64,000 bases of DNA from Panorpa germanica (lineage: Eukaryota > Arthropoda > Insecta > Mecoptera > Panorpidae). The stretch covers positions 62,001 to 126,000 of the forward strand of contig CAVMBN010000205.1 of the NCBI GenBank assembly GCA_963678705.1. The letters are read 5' to 3'. A program made the position numbers and the translations under genes. Positions 1-63,160 of this stretch are shown in pieces. Positions within the stretch are counted from its first letter, which is position 1; every line of letters starts with the position of its first letter. Below the pieces are notes generated by a model that saw nothing but the letters and a program-made list of their open reading frames with translations, ran no database searches and was not told the DNA's origin.

Positions 1-346
1 AATGTTTTGTAGCTGTCGGTAGTCGAATAATCAAGTCAAATCAAAGAATAATAAGTTTTTATTTTATTTAACCCTGCTAAGGCAGACATAATATTGAAAT
101 TTGATTATTCCTTGAAATAGCTGTAAGTAATATTTGATATTTTGATATATAAATACATATAGCAGAGATTTATGACCTGTACACAAGGATTGTAATGTCA
201 CATGCACTTGGAATGTGTACAACGTTAAATCCCTTTAATAATTAGAGACAATATGACTTTTTTAATTGTTAATATCTCTTAACATATAAGGAGTTATTAA
301 AAAATAAATGAACATTTGAGGTTCTAGTAACGCTTTATCAATATAT
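1..346 (+). repeat. TIR repeat family 'AATGGGC', left part of a copy split by the gypsy element
   Basis: This stretch matches the internal and right part of the 623-bp repeat at 22170-22792. Its last bases continue on the far side of the gypsy element at 7275. The copy's own left end lies outside the window. Confidence 0.85.
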
Positions 347-995
347 TGTTACAATTTTCACGGTGGCGACTACGGGGTTCTTTTTAGTTGATTGCCGAGC
401 GGAAGCAATTGTTTACACTATTTAGTCGCGTTGTAACTTAAATTTAGAAATAGCCACAATTCAAATTAAAAGATGGATTGACACTTTTATAAACTTTATT
501 TATTAACACAAAAACAATTACAACTACTTTACAATTATTACGGTTTATTATTTCACTTATTAGTTTTACTGGCTGATGTTTTCTTGCGGTCTGACTGCTG
601 TTGTAAAAAACTGACTCGCGACGCGATGCTCGCTCCTTTTATATCCGAGGTCTACGCAGCAGACTACCTCTGGTCACGACACCTCTGACTTTCCCGAATA
701 TTCCTATAATTATCCAGATACGCTGTTTGACCTTCCGTCTAGTTCTATGACGTTCCACTCCATACGCGTAGTATTTGGTTCTAGAAAGTTCACTAGTAAA
801 CAATAACACAAGTGCAGTTGTTTACGCTCATTTCCAGGAACACACACGCGTATAAGTTATGCGCTAACTAGTAAACAGCCTCGTTATCGAAACGTCTAGA
901 TATTTCTGCAGGGATGCGCAACCTTTTCTGCTAATTCCAGCTATTAGTTTATAACTATAATTTTTGTATCCTCAGACGCCCGCAAATTCGTAACA
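347..995 (-). repeat. 3' LTR of the gypsy element
   Basis: This is the 649-bp direct-repeat partner of 6626-7274. On the minus strand an AATAAA polyadenylation signal lies at 495-500. A three-unit heat-shock-element pattern lies at 779-791. Confidence 0.95.
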
Positions 996-1009
996 CTTTC
1001 CCCCTCTTA
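996..1009 (-). other. polypurine tract of the gypsy element
   Basis: On the minus strand the bases just before the 3' LTR read AAGAGGGGGAAAG, a typical plus-strand primer tract. Confidence 0.85.
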
Positions 1010-1038
1010 AAAGCGCTCGTCCCGAGGGCTTATAATTT

Positions 1039-4000
1039 TCATCGGGCGGCTGATTCCGTTAACTCCCAGTCCGGAGCATTTTCACCCTCGTACTTTGCGA
1101 GTCGGTCTCGGTGAACAATCATGCATTTTCCTCGGGCTGATCTCTGCACTTTGTAGATCACGTCCGAAATGACAGCCGATATTAAATACGGTCCTTCCCA
1201 TTTGGCTTGTAGTTTAGGGCTTCGTCCTATCTTCTTCTTAGGATAGTAGAGCCATACCGCATCACCTCTGGAAAAGCGCTGACTTTGTTTTCCACAATCA
1301 TAACGCGTTTTCGAGCGATCCGTCGCTAACTGAAGGCGTTCTCTCGCAAGTTTGTGGATTTTTTCTAATTCTTGCGCTAGGGTTTCGCAGTATTCTTCGT
1401 TGCCACTAAACTTTCTTTCGGGAGGAGGTCCGTACATCAGGTCACAGGGTAACCTGAGTTCACGTCCCATTAGCATAGCGGCTGGAGTCTGCCGTGTTGC
1501 TTCGTGCACCGCTGACCGATATGCCAGTAGAAACAGAGGTATCAACTCGTCCCAATTGTCTTGGTTAGTATGGACAAATTTCGTCAGGTATTTCTCTATC
1601 GTCCGATTTAGTCTTTCAACCATGCCGTTCGACTGCGGATGTAATGGTGTAGTTCGGGTTTTATGCATGCCTAGAAGTTTCGAAATCTGTTGGAATACGG
1701 CGGCTTCAAAATTTCTTCCTTGATTCGAATGTAGCTCTTGGGGAACTCCATAACGCGATACTACTTCTTGCACAAAGACTTTTGCAACTGTAATCGCTTC
1801 TTGATTCGGAATAGGAAGTATTTCAGGCCATTTGGTAAAGTAATCCACCACGATCAACACATATTTATTGCCGGTTCGGCTCCGTGGCAGTGGTCCTAAA
1901 ATGTCCATTCCAACTCTTTCGAACGGTGCTCCCACCGTGTAGGTATGCATAGGTCCTCGATTTCTCTGTCGGGGTCCTTTACTGGCCGTACAAGTGTCAC
2001 AATTTCGACACCAACGATTTACTGAGGCTCCGCAACGGGGCCAGTACCACCTTTGCCGTATCTTCTCTAGTGTTTTATGCACCCCGAAATGTCCACCTGA
2101 GAAACTATCGTGTACTTGTTTCAATATATCCGGGACTAGTTTATTAGGTACTATCAGTTGTCGAATGGGTGGCCTGTCGTCTACAAAATGCCACAACCGA
2201 TATAGCCTTCCATCGTGAAGTTCTAAACAGTTCCACATAGACCAATATTCTTTTACACGAGGACTATAGGCAGATACCTCTGGCCATTGAGGTCTAATTC
2301 CTGTCTTTTTCCATGCCGCAATGAGTGCCAGATCTTCATCTTCTTTCTGTGCTTCACCTACGATGTCACACAGTTTATCTTCTGCTTGATCAGTCGTTTG
2401 AATCGAGCTATCTGCAGGTGGAGGCGAATAATTGTTCTCCGTTACTTGAGTTTCTTCGGTTTTAGCCTTCGCCCGCGTCAAGTATCTTATGGGAACGGTT
2501 GCTACTGGTTCTGGTATATAAACCTGAATGTTGAGCTCCAAATCGTAGAACACGTATTTCAGCAGACGTTCTACATGTGCCCACGTCAAATGATCGTGTC
2601 CGCAACCTATTCGCGGAATGGCTAACTTCTTTACTTGTTGCTGCAGGATGTGTTCTCGTAGTGATACCAATGATTTCCATAAATCATGATACGTTGGTTT
2701 TCCGGAACTCCTCCGTTTTGTAATCAGGTAATAAATAAATCTTCCATCCTTTTCTAGAACTGCAACTTCTCCTACCTTTCTCTGTTGTTCTTGAAGCTTT
2801 CTCAGATCTCCGAATTTCTCCTTGAATGTTACTGCAATACCTTTACTCATGTGCAGGTCTTCGGCGACACAATGGGCTAACGAGTATTCGGAGGGTGCTG
2901 AGAATAGGTCATCCCTGATGTATTCCATGTTCATTTTGATTTCTGCTTTTACTAGTGTGTCGGGATCCCATTTTTCGGCATCATCATAGCTAAGAGGTAA
3001 TCGACCGTTTTGCAAATAGATTTGAGTATGTCGTATAAGTATGGCCTCATCGGGTACGCTTTCGGGCTCCTGTTTAGCCTCCTTACGTTCACAGTGGTCA
3101 CATCCATTGGTTGCACACGGTCTTCTAGACAATGCATCTGCATTCGCGTGTTGACGTCCTGGCCGATACTCGATTTTATACTGGTATTCGCTTATCTGTT
3201 GTAGCCAACGTGCTAGTTGTCCCTCAGGCTCCTTAAAATTTGTTAACCAGGTTAACGAAGCGTGGTCGGTACGAATTCGAAATGGCTGGCCCCACAAATA
3301 GTGTCTAAACTGTTTTAGAGCTTTAACGACTGCCAGAAGTTCTTTTCGCGTAACACAGTAATTCTGTTCGGTCTTCGAGAATACCCTACTGAAGTATTCT
3401 ATTACGCATTCTTCGCCTTGTTGTACTTGTGAAAGTACTGCTCCCATTCCCGTATGCGATGCGTCCGTATCCAATATAAATTCGCCTACACGTTGGGGAA
3501 AAGCAAGGATCGGTGCATTTGTAAGCTTTCCCTTTAATTGGTTGAACGAGTCTTCACATAATGGTGTCCACACAATGGGTCGCCTCTTCGTAGTTGGTTT
3601 CTCCGTAAGTTCATACAGCGGTTTTGCAATCTTCGCAAAGTTTGAAACAAATTTTCTGTAATAAGCACATAACCCAAAGAAACTCCGCACTTCCGACAGG
3701 TTGGTGGGTGTCGGCCAGGTCTGAATAGCTTTCAATTTTTCCGGGTCCGTAGATACTCCATTTCTAGTGACGACATGTCCCAGATATCTTATTTGCTCGG
3801 CACAAAGGTTGCATTTCTTTGGGTTTAATTTAAGGTTTGCTGTTCGTAATCGTTGAAATACAATTTTCAAATTATCTATTTGGCTTCTAGCATCTTTGCC
3901 AAGCACCACTATGTCGTCCAGATACACGAGGCATGTTCCCGGAGGTAAGTCTTTTAAGACGCTATCCATTAATCGTTCAAATGTTGCGGGGGCATTACAT

Positions 4001-5184
4001 AGACCAAAAGGCATTACTCGAAACTGCCATAAACCTTTCCCGGTCGTGAACGCTGTTTTCTCCCTATCTTCTTGTTTTACTTCCACTTGCCAATATCCGC
4101 TCCGGAGATCAAGCGTGGAGAAGTATTTAGACCCGTTTAATACGCTAAAAAGGCTATCGATACGAGGCAACGGGTATGCATCCTTTAGCGTGACATCGTT
4201 CAGTCTCCTGTAGTCCACGCAGAATCGCTTCGTTCCGTCTTTTTTCTTTACTAGTACTATCGGCGATGCCCACGGACTTGTTAAGGGTTCTATTATTCCA
4301 TCTCGCAGCATTTGATCCACCATGGCGTCAACTTCCTCTTCTTGTCCCCATGGCAGTCTTCGTGCAGGTTGTTTAATTGGTCTAGCGTCTCCTACCTTTA
4401 TTGGGTGTTGCACTAAGGTCGTGTGTCCCACGTCTTCTATTCCCGATGAAAAAATGTCCTGGTTGTCTTGTAATACCATCTTCAGGTCATGAGATTCTTC
4501 AAGAGTTAAGTTTTTATTTGACTTCTCATAGACGTCCTGCAGGTGGTCCGGAAGGGTCACTTCTTTATCATCTGAGGGCTGTATGTATTTTGTAATACTC
4601 GTTCTGATATTTAGAGTTTCTTCAGTGTCATCTTTCCACAACTTGAGCCGGTCTCTTCCTATTTGTATAATGTTAGCTCTTGGAAAAATTGTACAGTTTA
4701 TTGAGGACATCCAATCGTAGCCTAGAACACATTCTTCCTCTATTGGTGTTACGAGGAATATAAAGTCTCGGATCATGTGGCCTAACCTGATCTTTAATTT
4801 AATTTTTCCGGAAACGGGTGCCGTATCTCCAGTAATTGCTCGCAATACAATGGGAGCTGCTGGTGCAATGATCTGCTTCGTAAATTCTTGTCGTCTAATG
4901 AATTCCAATCCGACTAGTGATTGCGTAGCACCAGTATCAATCAAAAATTTACATGGCCGGTCTTCCATATATCCCATCACAATTGGTCCCCTATTTACTC
5001 CTCCTATTGTTCCGACTGCTGTAATGTGGGGACTCTTGATCGGAACAGCAGGCAGAGTTGTCCCCGTTAGACTGCCTGCGACTCGTTTCCCGACTGCCGA
5101 TCCGCATTGGCAGGCGATGTCGAGGGTCTTCTTTCCGAGCTTGTACCATTCACAGGTGGGTTTCTTCCCCTGTTGTAAGTCCAT
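1039..5184 (-). CDS. gypsy pol polyprotein with embedded macro domain
   Basis: Numbering is from the ATG at 5184. The order is aspartic protease (DTGA, 83-86), reverse transcriptase (about 270-490, YLDD at 421-424), RNase H (about 565-690, Asp572, Asp574, Glu615, Asp640), a macro domain (about 753-890), then integrase with an HHCC zinc module (His1032, His1036, Cys1062, Cys1065), a catalytic core and a GPY/F module near 1323-1334. The integrase triad should be D-D-E but reads Asp1094, Asn1154, Glu1190 with the usual 35-residue spacing between the last two; codon 1723-1725 gives Asn where the family has Asp. The frame is open back to about 5211 but is probably entered by -1 frameshifting at 5085-5091 rather than at the ATG. 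No other stop or frameshift is visible. Confidence 0.95.
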   Translation of the reverse strand: MDLQQGKKPTCEWYKLGKKTLDIACQCGSAVGKRVAGSLTGTTLPAVPIKSPHITAVGTIGGVNRGPIVMGYMEDRPCKFLIDTGATQSLVGLEFIRRQEFTKQIIAPAAPIVLRAITGDTAPVSGKIKLKIRLGHMIRDFIFLVTPIEEECVLGYDWMSSINCTIFPRANIIQIGRDRLKLWKDDTEETLNIRTSITKYIQPSDDKEVTLPDHLQDVYEKSNKNLTLEESHDLKMVLQDNQDIFSSGIEDVGHTTLVQHPIKVGDARPIKQPARRLPWGQEEEVDAMVDQMLRDGIIEPLTSPWASPIVLVKKKDGTKRFCVDYRRLNDVTLKDAYPLPRIDSLFSVLNGSKYFSTLDLRSGYWQVEVKQEDREKTAFTTGKGLWQFRVMPFGLCNAPATFERLMDSVLKDLPPGTCLVYLDDIVVLGKDARSQIDNLKIVFQRLRTANLKLNPKKCNLCAEQIRYLGHVVTRNGVSTDPEKLKAIQTWPTPTNLSEVRSFFGLCAYYRKFVSNFAKIAKPLYELTEKPTTKRRPIVWTPLCEDSFNQLKGKLTNAPILAFPQRVGEFILDTDASHTGMGAVLSQVQQGEECVIEYFSRVFSKTEQNYCVTRKELLAVVKALKQFRHYLWGQPFRIRTDHASLTWLTNFKEPEGQLARWLQQISEYQYKIEYRPGRQHANADALSRRPCATNGCDHCERKEAKQEPESVPDEAILIRHTQIYLQNGRLPLSYDDAEKWDPDTLVKAEIKMNMEYIRDDLFSAPSEYSLAHCVAEDLHMSKGIAVTFKEKFGDLRKLQEQQRKVGEVAVLEKDGRFIYYLITKRRSSGKPTYHDLWKSLVSLREHILQQQVKKLAIPRIGCGHDHLTWAHVERLLKYVFYDLELNIQVYIPEPVATVPIRYLTRAKAKTEETQVTENNYSPPPADSSIQTTDQAEDKLCDIVGEAQKEDEDLALIAAWKKTGIRPQWPEVSAYSPRVKEYWSMWNCLELHDGRLYRLWHFVDDRPPIRQLIVPNKLVPDILKQVHDSFSGGHFGVHKTLEKIRQRWYWPRCGASVNRWCRNCDTCTASKGPRQRNRGPMHTYTVGAPFERVGMDILGPLPRSRTGNKYVLIVVDYFTKWPEILPIPNQEAITVAKVFVQEVVSRYGVPQELHSNQGRNFEAAVFQQISKLLGMHKTRTTPLHPQSNGMVERLNRTIEKYLTKFVHTNQDNWDELIPLFLLAYRSAVHEATRQTPAAMLMGRELRLPCDLMYGPPPERKFSGNEEYCETLAQELEKIHKLARERLQLATDRSKTRYDCGKQSQRFSRGDAVWLYYPKKKIGRSPKLQAKWEGPYLISAVISDVIYKVQRSARGKCMIVHRDRLAKYEGENAPDWELTESAAR
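2515..2928 (-). other. TARG1/OARD1-type macro domain inside gypsy pol
   Basis: Pol residues about 753-890 match the macro-domain family that removes ADP-ribose from acidic residues (human TARG1/OARD1). Recognisable blocks are SLAHCVAEDLHMSKGIAV, YYLITKRRSSGKPTY and PRIGCGHDHLTW. The catalytic pair of human TARG1 is Lys84 and Asp125, 41 residues apart. Here Lys823 and Asp864 occupy the same motifs, also 41 apart. The domain is in frame, ends in a short linker and lies just after RNase H, upstream of integrase. Activity is inferred from the motifs only. Confidence 0.9.
5048..5091 (-). promoter_or_regulatory. -1 ribosomal frameshift signal joining gag to pol
   Basis: On the minus strand the heptamer GGGAAAC (5085-5091) is in phase with gag as G GGA AAC, the classic X XXY YYZ slippery form. 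After a 5-nt spacer, GCAGGCAG (5072-5079) can pair with CTGCCTGC (5048-5055) in an 8-bp stem with a 16-nt loop. The gag stop codon (5067-5069) lies in that loop. Slippage by one base leads directly into the pol frame. Confidence 0.9.
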
Positions 5185-6341
5185 CGCCGAACTCTTGAAA
5201 TTCCTGGATTATAACGGCTCCTATTTCGATCCTCGAGATCCGCCAATCGCCGAAACACCTCGTCCATAGCAGGGGTGGTATAAGAGGGAGATGTAGTGAC
5301 GGCGCTCCTTATACGGCTCACATCGGGAATATGGCTGACAGTTTCCATTTGAAGCGCAGCTGCCAGGGCCTCGTTTATGTTCTTCGGTTTAGCCAATAAT
5401 ATGGCCTCTTTTATCCTGCGCTCTCGCACAGCGTTAGCAAAATATTGTACCTCCCAATTTCCTAGCGTTTCCCTGGGGGCTTTGCCTGCAGCACGGTTCA
5501 CTAATCGTTCGATATCTGTCGCTAGGTCTGCTAGCCTTTCTCCCGGAGCTTGTCTCCTGTTCACCAGCTGCGCCCAGTACAGAGGTGCGAGACTTTCTTC
5601 CCCATACCGCTGGCTTAGCATCGCTTTAAGAGCCGTATAGCTTCGCCGCTCGTCCGGGTTCATATTTTGGAAAGCGATTAGAGCCGAACCCCGTAGCATG
5701 GCCGCTAACTGGCCTGCACAATCCCTGTCACTCCAGCCATTGAACTCCGCTATGGCTGTGAATTGCACCTCATATTCCTGCCAAGAGATTGTTCCATCGT
5801 AGGGGGCTGGCTTGATAGTGCTGGTTTTCGCAATCGTAGAGTTGACGCAACCTTGAGAGTTTTCTAAAACTTGCACTCTATCGGCAAGTTGTGTTAACTG
5901 CGCTCCTGCTAGTTGCTTCCCATTTTTCTGGACGAGTTCTACGCGTTCTTCTATCTCCTGAATTTTCGTCTCCGTTAGCTCCTGTCGTATTGTAACCGAT
6001 TGGAGACATTGTGTCACACTATCTTCTATTTCATTTATCCGCGTTTCTAATTCCTTTCTGGATCCTTTGCAAGCTTCTTCTACAGCTTGCAACTGCATTT
6101 GGAACGCATTAAACTTCTCGGAGATTTGTTCTTTGGACCTTTCCGTCTGTTCTTGAATTATTTTACTTTTTTCTGCCTGTTCTTGAAATTTCTCGAACAT
6201 CTCTTCTTTAGACTTTTCGGCCTGTTCTTGTAATTTCTCGAACATCTCTTCTTTGGACTTTTCAGTCTGTTCTTGTAATTTTTCAAACTTAGTATTCTGT
6301 TCTTCTCTCATTTCCCTACGTTCTTTTAAAAACTCTTCCAT
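5067..6341 (-). CDS. gypsy gag protein
   Basis: This 424-residue structural protein precedes pol and overlaps it in another frame. Residues about 8-80 hold charged repeats built on EKSKEEMFEKLQEQ, strongly predicted to form a coiled coil; a second coiled segment runs to about 165. Residues about 175-330 resemble the Ty3/gypsy gag core, with a PYDG...W.EY..QF start and an RYG...L...L region. The C-terminal tail is basic and Ser/Arg-rich, with no CCHC zinc knuckle in this frame. The start is the first ATG after the leader, 284 nt from the 5' LTR. The frame is intact. Confidence 0.92.
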   Translation of the reverse strand: MEEFLKERREMREEQNTKFEKLQEQTEKSKEEMFEKLQEQAEKSKEEMFEKFQEQAEKSKIIQEQTERSKEQISEKFNAFQMQLQAVEEACKGSRKELETRINEIEDSVTQCLQSVTIRQELTETKIQEIEERVELVQKNGKQLAGAQLTQLADRVQVLENSQGCVNSTIAKTSTIKPAPYDGTISWQEYEVQFTAIAEFNGWSDRDCAGQLAAMLRGSALIAFQNMNPDERRSYTALKAMLSQRYGEESLAPLYWAQLVNRRQAPGERLADLATDIERLVNRAAGKAPRETLGNWEVQYFANAVRERRIKEAILLAKPKNINEALAAALQMETVSHIPDVSRIRSAVTTSPSYTTPAMDEVFRRLADLEDRNRSRYNPGISRVRRWTYNRGRNPPVNGTSSERRPSTSPANADRQSGNESQAV

Positions 6342-6381
6342 TTTTGTTGCGTATTGTGTTGTAAATTGTTATAAAATTATT

Positions 6382-6528
6382 TTCTAGAATTTTCTGGGTG
6401 TCTCTAGAACTTTCTGGAAGGTTCTGGAATTCTCTAGAGTTTCTTTGAAATTATTATTATTGTTTTTCTCGAACCTTCCTCTTCTGAAAATCCTTCTTTC
6501 GGCAAATCCCGACTAGAAGTTTCTGGAA
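6382..6528 (-). promoter_or_regulatory. clustered heat-shock-element patterns in the gypsy leader
   Basis: Alternating GAA and TTC units at exact 2-nt spacing, the heat shock factor binding pattern, occur three times: 6382-6394 (three units), 6407-6429 (five perfect units) and 6516-6528 (three units). All lie between the primer-binding site and gag. HSF binding is inferred from the pattern alone. Confidence 0.6.
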
Positions 6529-6605
6529 GTCTTTTTGGAAACGTAGTTTCAGACTCTCCTGTTTTTCTTCCTGGAATTCTCTCTGCAGCGGTCGTAACTG
6601 TGGCT

Positions 6606-6623
6606 ACCCCACACCTGACACCA
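6606..6623 (-). other. gypsy primer-binding site, probably tRNA-Leu
   Basis: Two bases inside the 5' LTR the minus strand reads TGGTGTCAGGTGTGGG. TGGTGTCAG complements the acceptor end of insect tRNA-Leu, and the rest differs by about two bases from the tRNA-Leu type used by some gypsy elements. The tRNA assignment is from memory. Confidence 0.65.
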
Positions 6624-6625
6624 AA

Positions 6626-7274
6626 TGTTACAATTTTCACGGTGGCGACTACGGGGTTCTTTTTAGTTGATTGCCGAGCGGAAGCAATTGTTTACACTAT
6701 TTAGTCGCGTTGTAACTTAAATTTAGAAATAGCCACAATTCAAATTAAAAGAAGGATTGACACTTTTATAAACTTTATTTATTAACACAAAAACAATTAC
6801 AACTACTTTACAATTATTACGGTTTATTATTTCACTTATTAGTTTTACTGGCTGATGTTTTCTTGCGGTCTGACTGCTGTTGTAAAAAACTGACTCGCGA
6901 CGCGATGCTCGCTCCTTTTATATCCGAGGTCTACGCAGCAGACTACCTCTGGTCACGACACCTCTGACTTTCCCGAATATTCCTATAATTATCCAGATAC
7001 GCTGTTTGACCTTCCGTCTAGTTCTATGACGTTCCACTCCATACGCGTAGTATTTGGTTCTAGAAAGTTCACTAGTAAACAATAACACAAGTGCAGTTGT
7101 TTACGCTCATTTCCAGGAACACACACGCGTATAAGTTATGCGCTAACTAGTAAACAGCCTCGTTATCGAAACGTCTAGATATTTCTGCAGGGATGCGCAA
7201 CCTTTTCTGCTAATTCCAGCTATTAGTTTATAACTATAATTTTTGTATCCTCAGACGCCCGCAAATTCGTAACA
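6626..7274 (-). repeat. 5' LTR of the gypsy element, with promoter
   Basis: This 649-bp LTR drives minus-strand transcription. A TATA-like box (ATATAAAAGG) lies at 6914-6923. A perfect three-unit heat-shock-element pattern (TTC-GAA-TTC) lies about 140 bp upstream of it at 7058-7070. Confidence 0.93.
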
Positions 7275-7316
7275 ATATAGTACACTTTTATAGAATTTAA
7301 GACATAGGACACAAGC
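7275..7316 (+). repeat. right end of the TIR repeat split by gypsy
   Basis: The repeat resumes after the second ATAT copy and runs through its conserved terminal block (ACTTTTATAGAATTTAAGAC and GGACACAAGC). The last terminal bases are altered. Confidence 0.8.
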
Positions 7317-8217: not shown

Positions 8218-9493
8218 CATGGGCTGAAAAGTCCCGGGCGTAACAAAGAAAACACAGTTTTTTTGGTTCAAAATTAGCTTTATTCATCAACGTAATCTCC
8301 ATCAAGAGCAACGCAATCATTCCAGCGCCGCTCTAACATTTAAATACCACTTTTGCAGAACGATTTATCTTTTGCCTCAAAATAGGCTTCAGTTTCAGCG
8401 ATAACCTCTTCATTCGTGCGAAATTTTTTTACCGGCGAGCATTTTTTTCAGGTCTGCGAACAGGCAGTAGTCGCTGGGAGTTAAATCTGGCGAATACGGT
8501 GGATGTGGGAGCAATTCGAAGTTCAATTCATGTAGTTTTGCCATTGTTTTGATTGACTTGTGACACGGTGCGTTCTCTTGATTTTTTCTTTACCATATGC
8601 GGTCGTTTCTTTGCAATTTCGGCCTTCAAACGCTCCAATAACGCTATATAATATTCACTGCTAATGGTATTTTCTTTCTCAAGATAGTCGATGAATATTA
8701 CACCACGCACATCCCAAAATACCGAGGCCATAACCTTTCCACCCGATTGTTGTGCTTTCGGGCGCTTTGGACGAGGTTCACCAGTTGCTGTCCACTCAGA
8801 TGACGATCGTTTTGATTCCGGAGTGAAGTGATGGATCCATGTTTCATCCATTGTCACATATCGACGCAAAAATTCCGGTTTGTTACGTTTAAACATGGCC
8901 AAACACTGCTCAGAATCATCAACACGTTGTCGTTTTTGGTGAACAGTAAGCAAACGCGGCACCCACTTTGAACAGAGCTTTCTCATAGTCAAATGCTCAT
9001 GCAATATAAAGCCAACACGTTCTTTTGATATCTTTACGATGTCAGCTAACTCACGCAACTTCACTTTTCGATCATTCCAAACGATTTTGTGGATTTTTTT
9101 TATGTTTTCTGGTGTTACCGCCTCATTTGGACGTCCACTGCGTTCTGCATCATCGGTGTCTCTACGACCACGTTTGAAGTCAACAAACCAACGTTTTATT
9201 GTTGTTTCTGATGAAGCAGAGTCCCCATAACACTTTCCAAGCCATTGCTTCGCTTGAACGGTATTTTTTCCCATCAAGAAGCAGTGTAAAATTAAAACAC
9301 GAAATTGTTTTTGATCCATTGTTTTGAAAAAAAAAGTAGCGTCACTCTTAGCACAATAACTCACAAACTAATGAATAGAATATTATGAAATTTTAACAGT
9401 TGTCTTTTGAAGGTTAGTATTAACTGAATACTAACTAGACTGCAATAAAACTAGCGCCATCTATGTGTTATGCCCGGGACTTTTCAGCCCATG
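8218..9493 (-). mobile_element. mariner element (irritans-type), inactive
   Basis: Perfect terminal inverted repeats beginning CATGGGCTGAAAAGTCCCGG lie at both ends. The left flank is TA; the right flank is TG, so the target duplication is slightly eroded. The 1276-bp length is typical of the family. Confidence 0.95.
8280..9319 (-). pseudogene. mariner transposase, frameshifted
   Basis: The transposase cut-and-paste enzyme reads from MDQKQFR (ATG at 9319) through the helix-turn-helix region, WVPRLLT and the first catalytic motif TMDETWIHHF; the second Asp lies in VFWDVRG. The frame breaks near 8585, where several residues before the third catalytic motif are missing. In the shifted frame that motif reads QENAPCHKS, with Glu in place of the third Asp (codon 8575-8577). 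A second frameshift lies in an A-run near 8430 and a stop near 8340. The end GDYVDE is still recognisable. The broken frame and changed catalytic residue indicate a dead copy. Motif wording fits the irritans subfamily (D,D34D). Confidence 0.93.
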
Positions 9494-61402: not shown

Positions 61403-62404
61403 TTCACCGGTCAATCAGGATTATATTTTAGTACTTGTTATCCTGAAACTAATACATCATTTTCAAATAATATTCAAATTCATGAACCATATTCTTTTGC
61501 TTATTATATTAAATGTTCCTTTAATGATTCCTTAAGTAAGTTTGTTACGTACAGAGGTATTAATTGCGTTAAAGTATTTATTGAAACAATAACTGAAGAC
61601 GCTAAACAAATTTATAAAGTCTTAAATAAAGTGAAGCCTTTTAATAAATTATCTGACTGGCAAAAACAGGAATATGATGAAGCTTCTATTTGCCATATTT
61701 GTGAAGGTATCCTCAATGGTGATAAAGTGTTAGATCATTGTCATTTAACTGGTAATTACCGAGGAGCTGCTCATAATCATTGCAATTTAAAATTTACAAT
61801 TCCAAAGTTTATACCTGTCATATTCCATAACTTAAGTAATTACGATAGCCATATAATTGTAAAAGAATTAGGTAATGATAGTGAAAAAATTGAAGTTATT
61901 CCAGAAAATAAGGAAAAGTATATATCTTTTACGAAACATATTTTGGTGGAATCAAAAGTCGATAAAAATGATAAAGTTCATAACTGCTATATTAAACTTA
62001 GATTTATTGATTCTTTACGATTTATGCATTCTAGTTTAGAAACACTTGCAAAAAATTTATTATCAGAACAATTTTTCGAATTAAAAAAATTCTATCCGAA
62101 TGAAAATCATTTCAATTTATTAAAACGTAAAGGTGTATTTCCTTATGAATATGTAAATAGTAGGGATATGCTTAATGAATCTGACTTTCCATCTCAAAAT
62201 AATTTTTATAGCTCACCTAATGGCTGTAATATATCTGACGATGATTACAATCATGTCAAAATGGTTTGGTATGCATTTGAAATGAAAACATTGGGGGAAT
62301 ATTCAGACTTATATTTAAAGATCGATGTTCTGTTGTTAACAGATATTTTTGAAAATTTTCGAGATGTGTGCTATAAACATATAATATACATCATTTTCAA
62401 ATAA
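61403..62404 (+). pseudogene. Polinton-like protein-primed DNA polymerase B fragment
   Basis: Reading begins TGQSGLYFSTCYPETN and continues without stop through an endonuclease-VII-like zinc module (CHICEGIL, then VLDHCHLTGNYRGAAHNHCN) into the exonuclease part of a type-B polymerase (IPVIFHNLSNYDSHII, and YLKIDVLLLTDIF, matching Exo II and Exo III). The palm with the polymerase motifs is absent. This combination is seen in Polinton/Maverick and related virus-like elements of arthropods. The right edge is a duplication junction at about 62386. It is a fragment and cannot act as a polymerase. Confidence 0.8.
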
Positions 62405-63142
62405 TATTCAAATTCATGAACCATATTCTTTTGCTTATTATATTAAATGTTCCTTTAATGATTCCTTAAGTAAGTTTGTTACGTACAGAGGTATTAATTG
62501 CGTTAAAGTATTTATTGAAACAATAACTGAAGACGCTAAACAAATTTATAAAGTCTTAAATAAAGTGAAGCCTTTAAATAAATTATCTGATTGGCAAAAA
62601 CAGGAATATGATGAAGCTTCTATTTGCCATATTTGTGAAGGTATCCTCAATGGTGATAAAGTGTTAGATCATTGTCATTTAACTGGTAATTACCGAGGAG
62701 CTGCTCATAATCATTGCAATTTAAAATTTACAATTCCAAAGTTTATACCTGTCATATTCCATAACTTAAGTAATTACGATAACCATATAATTGTAAAAGA
62801 ATTAGGTAATGATAGTGAAAAAATTGAAGTTATTCCAGAAAATAAGGAAAAGTATATATCTTTTACGAAACATATTTTGGTGGAATCAAAAGTCGATAAA
62901 AATGATAAAGTTCATAACTGCTATATTAAACTTAGATTTATTGATTCTTTACGATTTATGCATTCTAGTTTAGAAACACTTGCAAAAAATTTATTATCAG
63001 AACAATTTTTCGAATTAAAAAAATTCTATCCGAATGAAAATCATTTCAATTTATTAAAACGTAAAGGTGTATTTCCTTATGAATATGTAAATAGTAGGGA
63101 TATGCTTAATGAATCTGACTTGCCATCTCAAAATAATTTTTA
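62386..63142 (+). repeat. tandem duplicate of part of the polymerase fragment
   Basis: These 757 bp repeat 61452-62208 with very few differences (for example a Ser codon changed to Asn after SNYD). It stops abruptly in an (AAT)n tract at 63142-63160. Confidence 0.9.
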
Positions 63143-63160
63143 ATAATAATAATAATAAAC

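Follow-up and report, generated by a model that had tools for sequence, protein, structure and literature searches.

A TARG1/OARD1-type macro domain inside the pol protein of a Ty3/gypsy element of Panorpa germanica, with further carriers among gypsy-type families

Macro domains are used by RNA viruses against ADP-ribosylation. Here we describe a macro domain of the TARG1/OARD1 type that lies inside the pol protein of a Ty3/gypsy element, in a stretch of 64,000 nucleotides from Panorpa germanica (contig CAVMBN010000205.1, positions 62,001 to 126,000, i.e. G000:C220:62001-126000 of a 464-Mb genome; the whole stretch is called the window). The closest described proteins are human TARG1, also known as OARD1 or C6orf130, and its animal orthologues. 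The window domain belongs to the same sequence family, has the equivalents of K84 and D125, and retains 35 of the 36 columns that are conserved at 97% or more in 120 OARD1-like proteins, i.e. the conserved ligand loops are kept (hypergeometric p 7e-11, a value that ignores phylogeny and hence overstates the significance). The orthologues are cellular proteins, however, whereas the window domain sits inside pol. It also differs from OARD1 in the glycine preceding the DLF motif, which is changed, and in having MSKGIA where OARD1 has MG.GIA; the pattern MS[KRQ]GI occurs in none of the 120 OARD1-like proteins.

The macro domain of the DarG antitoxin and the TARG1-like proteins of phages fall into the same macro subgroup and are likewise tied to mobile elements. 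The window domain is 42% identical to the protein of phage LP65 and 37% to that of phage G, and it matches the PADLOC profile of DarG with E 1.8e-18. Its score remains below the curated NCBIfam cutoff for DarG (55.2 vs 250 bits), and an identity as DarG antitoxin was rejected on this ground. Moreover, the phage matches carry no annotation as part of a pol gene, unlike the domain described here. TARG1-like genes were found in 13 of 50,697 phage records, and some of these genes (records H1-H12, e.g. LP65, LpeD, G and Fnu1) are annotated merely as hypothetical or by a gp number. In IMG/VR the domain has 140 relatives, 80 of which (L001-L080) were kept; to all appearance their contigs are those of phages, and none of the 80 loci has a reverse transcriptase (RT) or integrase like that of the window element. 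A scan of IMG/VR with the window domain alone gave no confirmed case.

Fish epsilon-like endogenous retroviruses have been mentioned as having macro domains (Basta et al. 2009, via PMC4977317), which means that macro domains in retroelements are not without precedent. In a passage of PMC4977317 the fish domains are described as additional open reading frames (ORFs), with no macro subtype stated, whereas here the domain is fused into a gypsy-type pol. Other long terminal repeat (LTR) elements have gained accessory domains such as a chromodomain or a DnaQ-like exonuclease (PMC6338049, PMC5408684), one kind at least twice (PMC5408684), and a term search in both texts gave neither macro domain nor ADP-ribose. 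In the literature searched (mainly titles and abstracts, most subscription papers being outside its coverage) we found no description of a macro domain in a gypsy pol and no study of LTR retroelements that themselves reverse ADP-ribosylation. What appears to be new with respect to that literature is the fusion of TARG1 inside a gypsy-type pol, in several lineages and places.

The domain (138 amino acids, pol residues 753-890) is encoded at 2515..2928 on the minus strand. A phmmer search against the PDB matched query residues 2-137, i.e. 136 residues, to human TARG1/OARD1 (4j5r) with E 1.9e-44, while the next-best solved macro chain, 5m31, reached E 1.5e-5; in other words, the match to OARD1 is better than that to other macro subfamilies, which places the domain in the TARG1/OARD1 subfamily. 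The Pfam family Macro (PF01661) scored 22.8 bits with the 138-residue piece and 21.2 bits with a 214-residue piece, the cutoff being 22, and with a score so near the cutoff the domain can be missed by automatic annotation. Domain residues 71 and 112, i.e. pol K823 (codon 2716..2718, minus strand) and D864 (codon 2593..2595, minus strand), align with K84 and D125 of tenrec OARD1. Both residues were present in all 12 rows of the first alignment set, one row of which (P0013) is of uncertain nature, and the catalytic Lys and Asp equivalents are unchanged throughout alignment A1 (57 rows, where they are numbered K76 and D117). These results bear out a preliminary description made from the letters of the window, which had named a TARG1/OARD1 macro domain at pol residues about 753-890, had equated Lys823 and Asp864 with human Lys84 and Asp125 at the same spacing, and had set the lack of a significant macro match as a possible refutation, an outcome that did not occur. 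The window thus holds a complete TARG1-type domain with its catalytic residues kept. Chance or artefact was ruled out by the E-values, by the copies on many contigs and by the relatives in other assemblies.

The surrounding pol ORF (1039..5184, minus strand, as are all its parts) codes for 1381 amino acids without interruption. According to Pfam, its domain order is aspartic protease (pol about 70-158, 4711..4977; PF13650, E 1.4e-6), RT (about 312-471, 3772..4251; PF00078, E 1.2e-36), RNase H (about 539-667, 3184..3570; PF17917 and PF17919), macro domain, integrase H2C2 zinc-binding domain (1978..2151; PF17921, E 1.3e-21), integrase core (1636..1926; PF00665, E 1.4e-9) and integrase C-terminal domain (1093..1194; PF22938, E 3.2e-9).

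The insert is not confined to one copy. Its absence from all other copies of the element had been set beforehand as a possible refutation, and the best 150 scored genome matches to the window domain, which give a lower bound, include 60 near full-length domain copies of the window family (family A; 82-100% identity over at least 134 of 138 residues). By our own count 51 of these 60 rows have no stop inside the domain, and 29 sit in open frames of 1296-1389 amino acids. Five further gypsy-type families of the same genome (B, C1, C2, C3 and D) also carry the domain. In family B, with open frames of up to 1638 amino acids, domain mapping puts it between protease and RT (L089:3498-3908 and L090:3494-3904), which is a third position in pol next to those described in this and the following paragraph. 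In C1, C2, C3 and D it lies between RNase H and integrase, the C1 copy seen having its integrase in a separate frame, and the RT pieces of these four families are 45-48% identical to the window RT. Behind the domain-bearing pol of family C2 there is an ORF of 626 amino acids that matches Baculo_F, the errantivirus envelope family, with E 6.8e-61 (L092:546-2423, the domain being at 3498-3860). Family D is highly amplified, its domain taking up all of the best 150 scored rows at 90-100% identity (copies L147-L148 and L153-L162 of the same genome).

Carriers were also found in other assemblies. The best 120 of 7994 matches to the RT-RNase H region were examined as the nearest pols, and at least eight of them carry the domain: in seven it follows the integrase, and in P0225 it separates RNase H from the integrase. 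The eight are a lower bound, as 96 of the 120 show both RNase H and integrase pieces and 74 an integrase C-terminal piece. Two more carriers were recovered through the domain itself, P0008 with the domain behind the integrase and P0014 with the domain ahead of it, after RNase H, and the after-integrase carriers amount to eight proteins of one clade. PF01661 is absent from the precomputed Pfam lists of all ten pol carriers outside the window genome, so the TARG1-type domain has probably been overlooked in other genomes. The position between RNase H and integrase, which the preliminary description had considered unusual, is shared by families A, C1, C2, C3 and D as well as P0225 and P0014 and is not unusual among carriers. 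The preliminary description is also too narrow, since the domain occurs in several gypsy lineages besides the amplified family A.

We also note some features of individual carriers. In six of the eight after-integrase carriers (P0008, P0157, P0163, P0176, P0237 and P0247) a CCCH-type finger, which may bind RNA, follows the macro domain at the pol C-terminus. P0013 (703 amino acids) ends in a TARG1-like domain and its upstream part has a C-x-C-x7-H-x4-C motif. We take this motif to be the one of LINE ORF2 tails, in which case a non-LTR element may carry a TARG1-like domain too.

In an RT tree of 58 rows, from which P0014 was omitted as a long branch, the after-integrase carriers fall within one clade of 10 rows (support 98/98), two of which lack the domain (P0194, which ends before the integrase core, and P0196, which ends after the integrase). 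The window element pairs with P0225 (96/85), and the two are also sisters in the RT tree that includes the same-genome families. There, a clade of C1, C2, C3, D and P0014 (100/99) has B as its neighbour (99/98). A single RT clade was rejected by the approximately unbiased (AU) test both for all ten carriers in the 58-row tree (p 0.0007) and for all 17 carrier rows in the tree with the same-genome families (p 0.0002), so that several gains, moves, swaps or losses are required. Three trees were made of the domain itself, one of which omitted P0013, P0014 and P0163 because their rows are long or degenerate. Their resolution is low: grouping is supported for the after-integrase domains (96/97) and for those of C1-C3 (100/99), and the trees neither establish nor rule out that all retro macro domains go back to one origin (AU p 0.20, 0.28 and 0.34). 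Several captures could account for the distribution, as could a single capture with later transfer from element to element; strictly vertical descent from one capture would imply numerous losses.

With regard to the source of the domain, the window copy is closest to OARD1-like proteins (59% identity to P0015, 57% to a cricket protein), and its best identity to a retro copy outside its own family is 50%. The preliminary description had inferred the capture of a host OARD1 gene, but none of the three domain trees places the window domain inside insect OARD1 with support, and a host donor is at this stage a supposition. The domains of the window element and P0225 are 47% identical, despite the sister relation of their RTs, and find no supported pairing in the domain tree. 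Because the window domain is nearer to the OARD1-like proteins than to that of its RT sister, an uptake separate from or later than that of P0225 would fit the sequences. No host OARD1 gene was recognised in the same genome among the best 150 matches to P0017, a list taken up by retro copies and pieces. Among the OARD1-like proteins P0001 (from a cricket), P0004 and P0005 (from a firefly) are long, and their first macro domain is followed by another macro-like stretch of weak similarity.

Selection on the domain was estimated from the ratio of nonsynonymous to synonymous substitution rates (dN/dS) by the Nei-Gojobori method (NG86) with codon bootstrap. Family A was sampled with 28 of its 60 near full-length rows and family D with 12 of 150 rows; for family B, 22 of about 48 rows at 44-48% identity were used, which were taken to belong to it. 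Only rows listed as free of stops in the domain entered the samples. Hence the absence of stops in them is not a finding, and the dN/dS values may be somewhat low. For family A the domain gave 0.28 (confidence interval 0.19-0.42), RT 0.15, RNase H 0.10, integrase 0.18 and two linkers 0.34 and 0.46. For family B the domain gave 0.26 (0.14-0.51), RT 0.12 and the linker after the domain 0.68 (0.42-1.17), and for family D the domain gave 0.18 (0.10-0.31). The domain intervals are below 1 in all of these families, as expected of purifying selection, and we regard it as nearly certain that the TARG1-type domain is under selection. In these samples K84 and D125 are present in all 28 family A and all 22 family B copies, and the family A domain is very probably catalytically active.

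The reading that we favour, and hold to be somewhat more probable than not, is that of an ADP-ribosylhydrolase that is under selection and travels in the particle together with RT and integrase. The pol of the window element would have taken up a TARG1/OARD1-type domain in the stretch that links RNase H to the integrase. As pol lies at -1 to the gag-position ORF, the domain would be made as part of Gag-Pol and would thereby enter the particle one for one with RT and integrase. In line with this, the domain of the mapped carriers is always found alongside RT and/or integrase. Within the particle it would act as a mono-ADP-ribosylhydrolase via the lysine equivalent to TARG1 Lys84, its likeliest substrate being ADP-ribose placed by host transferases on the replication intermediates of the element. 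Candidate targets would be nascent single-stranded cDNA, DNA ends, integrase and other particle proteins, and the removal of ADP-ribose would sustain reverse transcription and integration. Single-stranded DNA and free ends arise in reverse transcription, and intact ends are required for integration. TARG1 reverses thymidine-linked ADP-ribosylation of single-stranded DNA, for which K84 is required, and acts in vitro on end-linked ADP-ribose (PMC8501950); it also removes PARP1-made ADP-ribose from telomere DNA (PMC11102865). As TARG1 acts on the kinds of DNA that reverse transcription yields, cDNA or particle proteins would be the first-choice target. An action in cis on the DNA or proteins of the particle is put forward tentatively, at a little under an even chance, and DNA rather than protein as the target is, taken alone, on the unlikely side. 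The use against PARP-based defence that the preliminary description had proposed is plausible.

Several observations weigh against this reading. The family A domain is less constrained than RNase H, the two intervals being separate, and there is overlap between its interval and those of RT, integrase and each of the linkers; the family B interval overlaps that of its linker as well, so that a stronger constraint on the domain than on the linkers is a trend. In all 12 family D copies examined, K84 is kept, D125 is replaced by T or S, and AHC has become VDF or LDF. The ligand and glycine loops of this family are altered, yet the domain is constrained, and its sequence still matches TARG1 (4j5r) with E 2.5e-14. 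Furthermore, C3 has EFDLD for GCGxD and P0163 of the after-integrase clade has altered loops with SGGPD. The altered sites in D, C3 and P0163 indicate that activity is dispensable in some lineages. Within pol, a TARG1-derived domain can thus retain a use even when its active site is abnormal, and at least in these cases this speaks for a second role, structural or binding.

Families D and C3 argue for a structural or reader module, i.e. a macro fold that serves as linker or as binding tether, for example to chromatin with PARylated proteins so that integration is aided, with hydrolysis being incidental. The constrained, TARG1-like domain of D without D125 and AHC and the GCG loop lost in C3 point in this direction. 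On the other hand, a mere linker would not preserve the host-invariant columns of the window domain, nor K84 and D125 in the A and B copies, and the altered loops of D speak against pure ADP-ribose reading in that family. We consider such a module rather unlikely, if the strongest of the alternatives.

The hydrolase might also act in trans, stripping host ADP-ribose marks from chromatin or silencing factors and so enabling transcription of the element. In the mapped carriers, however, the domain is located in pol, which is as a rule the lower-yield product; this fits a role within the particle more readily than one on chromatin ahead of expression. Counter-silencing has some indirect grounds in published work: in Drosophila without PARP-1 most misregulated mobile elements are up, many of them of the gypsy superfamily and part of them without significance (PMC7712786), and in mammals SIRT6 mono-ADP-ribosylates KAP1, by which L1 is silenced (PMC4695847). 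The authors of the Drosophila study consider the effect possibly indirect (PMC7712786). We find counter-silencing improbable, more so than a structural module. Finally, a useless passenger from the host would be helped by a frame between RNase H and integrase that must stay open anyway and by the choice of stop-free copies for dN/dS, but it can be practically dismissed given the intervals below 1 in A, B and D and the fact that the domain recurs in distinct RT lineages and at three positions of pol.

Taken more widely, the selected-hydrolase reading would make the TARG1-type hydrolase a recurrent accessory enzyme of insect gypsy-type elements, including an envelope-bearing errantivirus-like family. 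Gains or swaps would have occurred several times, with the enzyme sitting at three places in pol and having become, in one case, a conserved pseudoenzyme in the linker from RNase H to integrase. On their DNA or particle proteins the elements would meet a barrier of host ADP-ribosylation, comparable to DarT for phages. We regard this wider picture as plausible, though falling slightly short of probable. If it is true, reverse-transcribing insect elements meet such a barrier; the carriage of the domain across retrotransposon families hints that they may have to cope with host ADP-ribosylation. In addition, the related carrier families, in which the catalytic site is intact, changed or missing and the domain takes three positions, offer a natural set for testing whether ADP-ribose reversal, on DNA or protein, aids reverse transcription or integration.

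The whole element in the window spans 347..7274 and reads 5' to 3' on the minus strand, with an LTR pair, TG...CA ends and a 4-bp flanking repeat. The 5' LTR (6626..7274) and the 3' LTR (347..995), each of 649 bp, are the same at 648 of 649 bases, and the element is a recent insertion. The candidate target-site repeat ATAT (343..346, partner 7275-7278) is weak alone, as it consists of just 4 AT bases. A candidate polypurine tract (996..1008, minus strand) adjoins the 3' LTR. The gag-position ORF of 424 amino acids (5067..6341, minus strand) matches no Pfam family above cutoff in a Pfam scan. Pol overlaps it in the -1 frame, and in the overlap a candidate -1 slip site, GGGAAAC, is read at 5085..5091, with another candidate heptamer for slippage at 5157-5163 (both minus strand). 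The LTRs, the gag-position ORF and the order protease, RT, RNase H, integrase place the element in Ty3/gypsy (Metaviridae). An envelope gene after pol, as in Errantivirus, is not present in the window element, because just 43 bases separate pol and the 3' LTR. Judging from the sequence, the copy looks complete.

Elsewhere in the window, a Mariner-like transposase ORF (8528-9364) and several C2H2 zinc-finger ORFs (from 14228 to 53049, some with a common N-terminus) were named by reading their translations, and two near-identical ORF pieces stand in tandem at 61631-62404 and 62565-63143.
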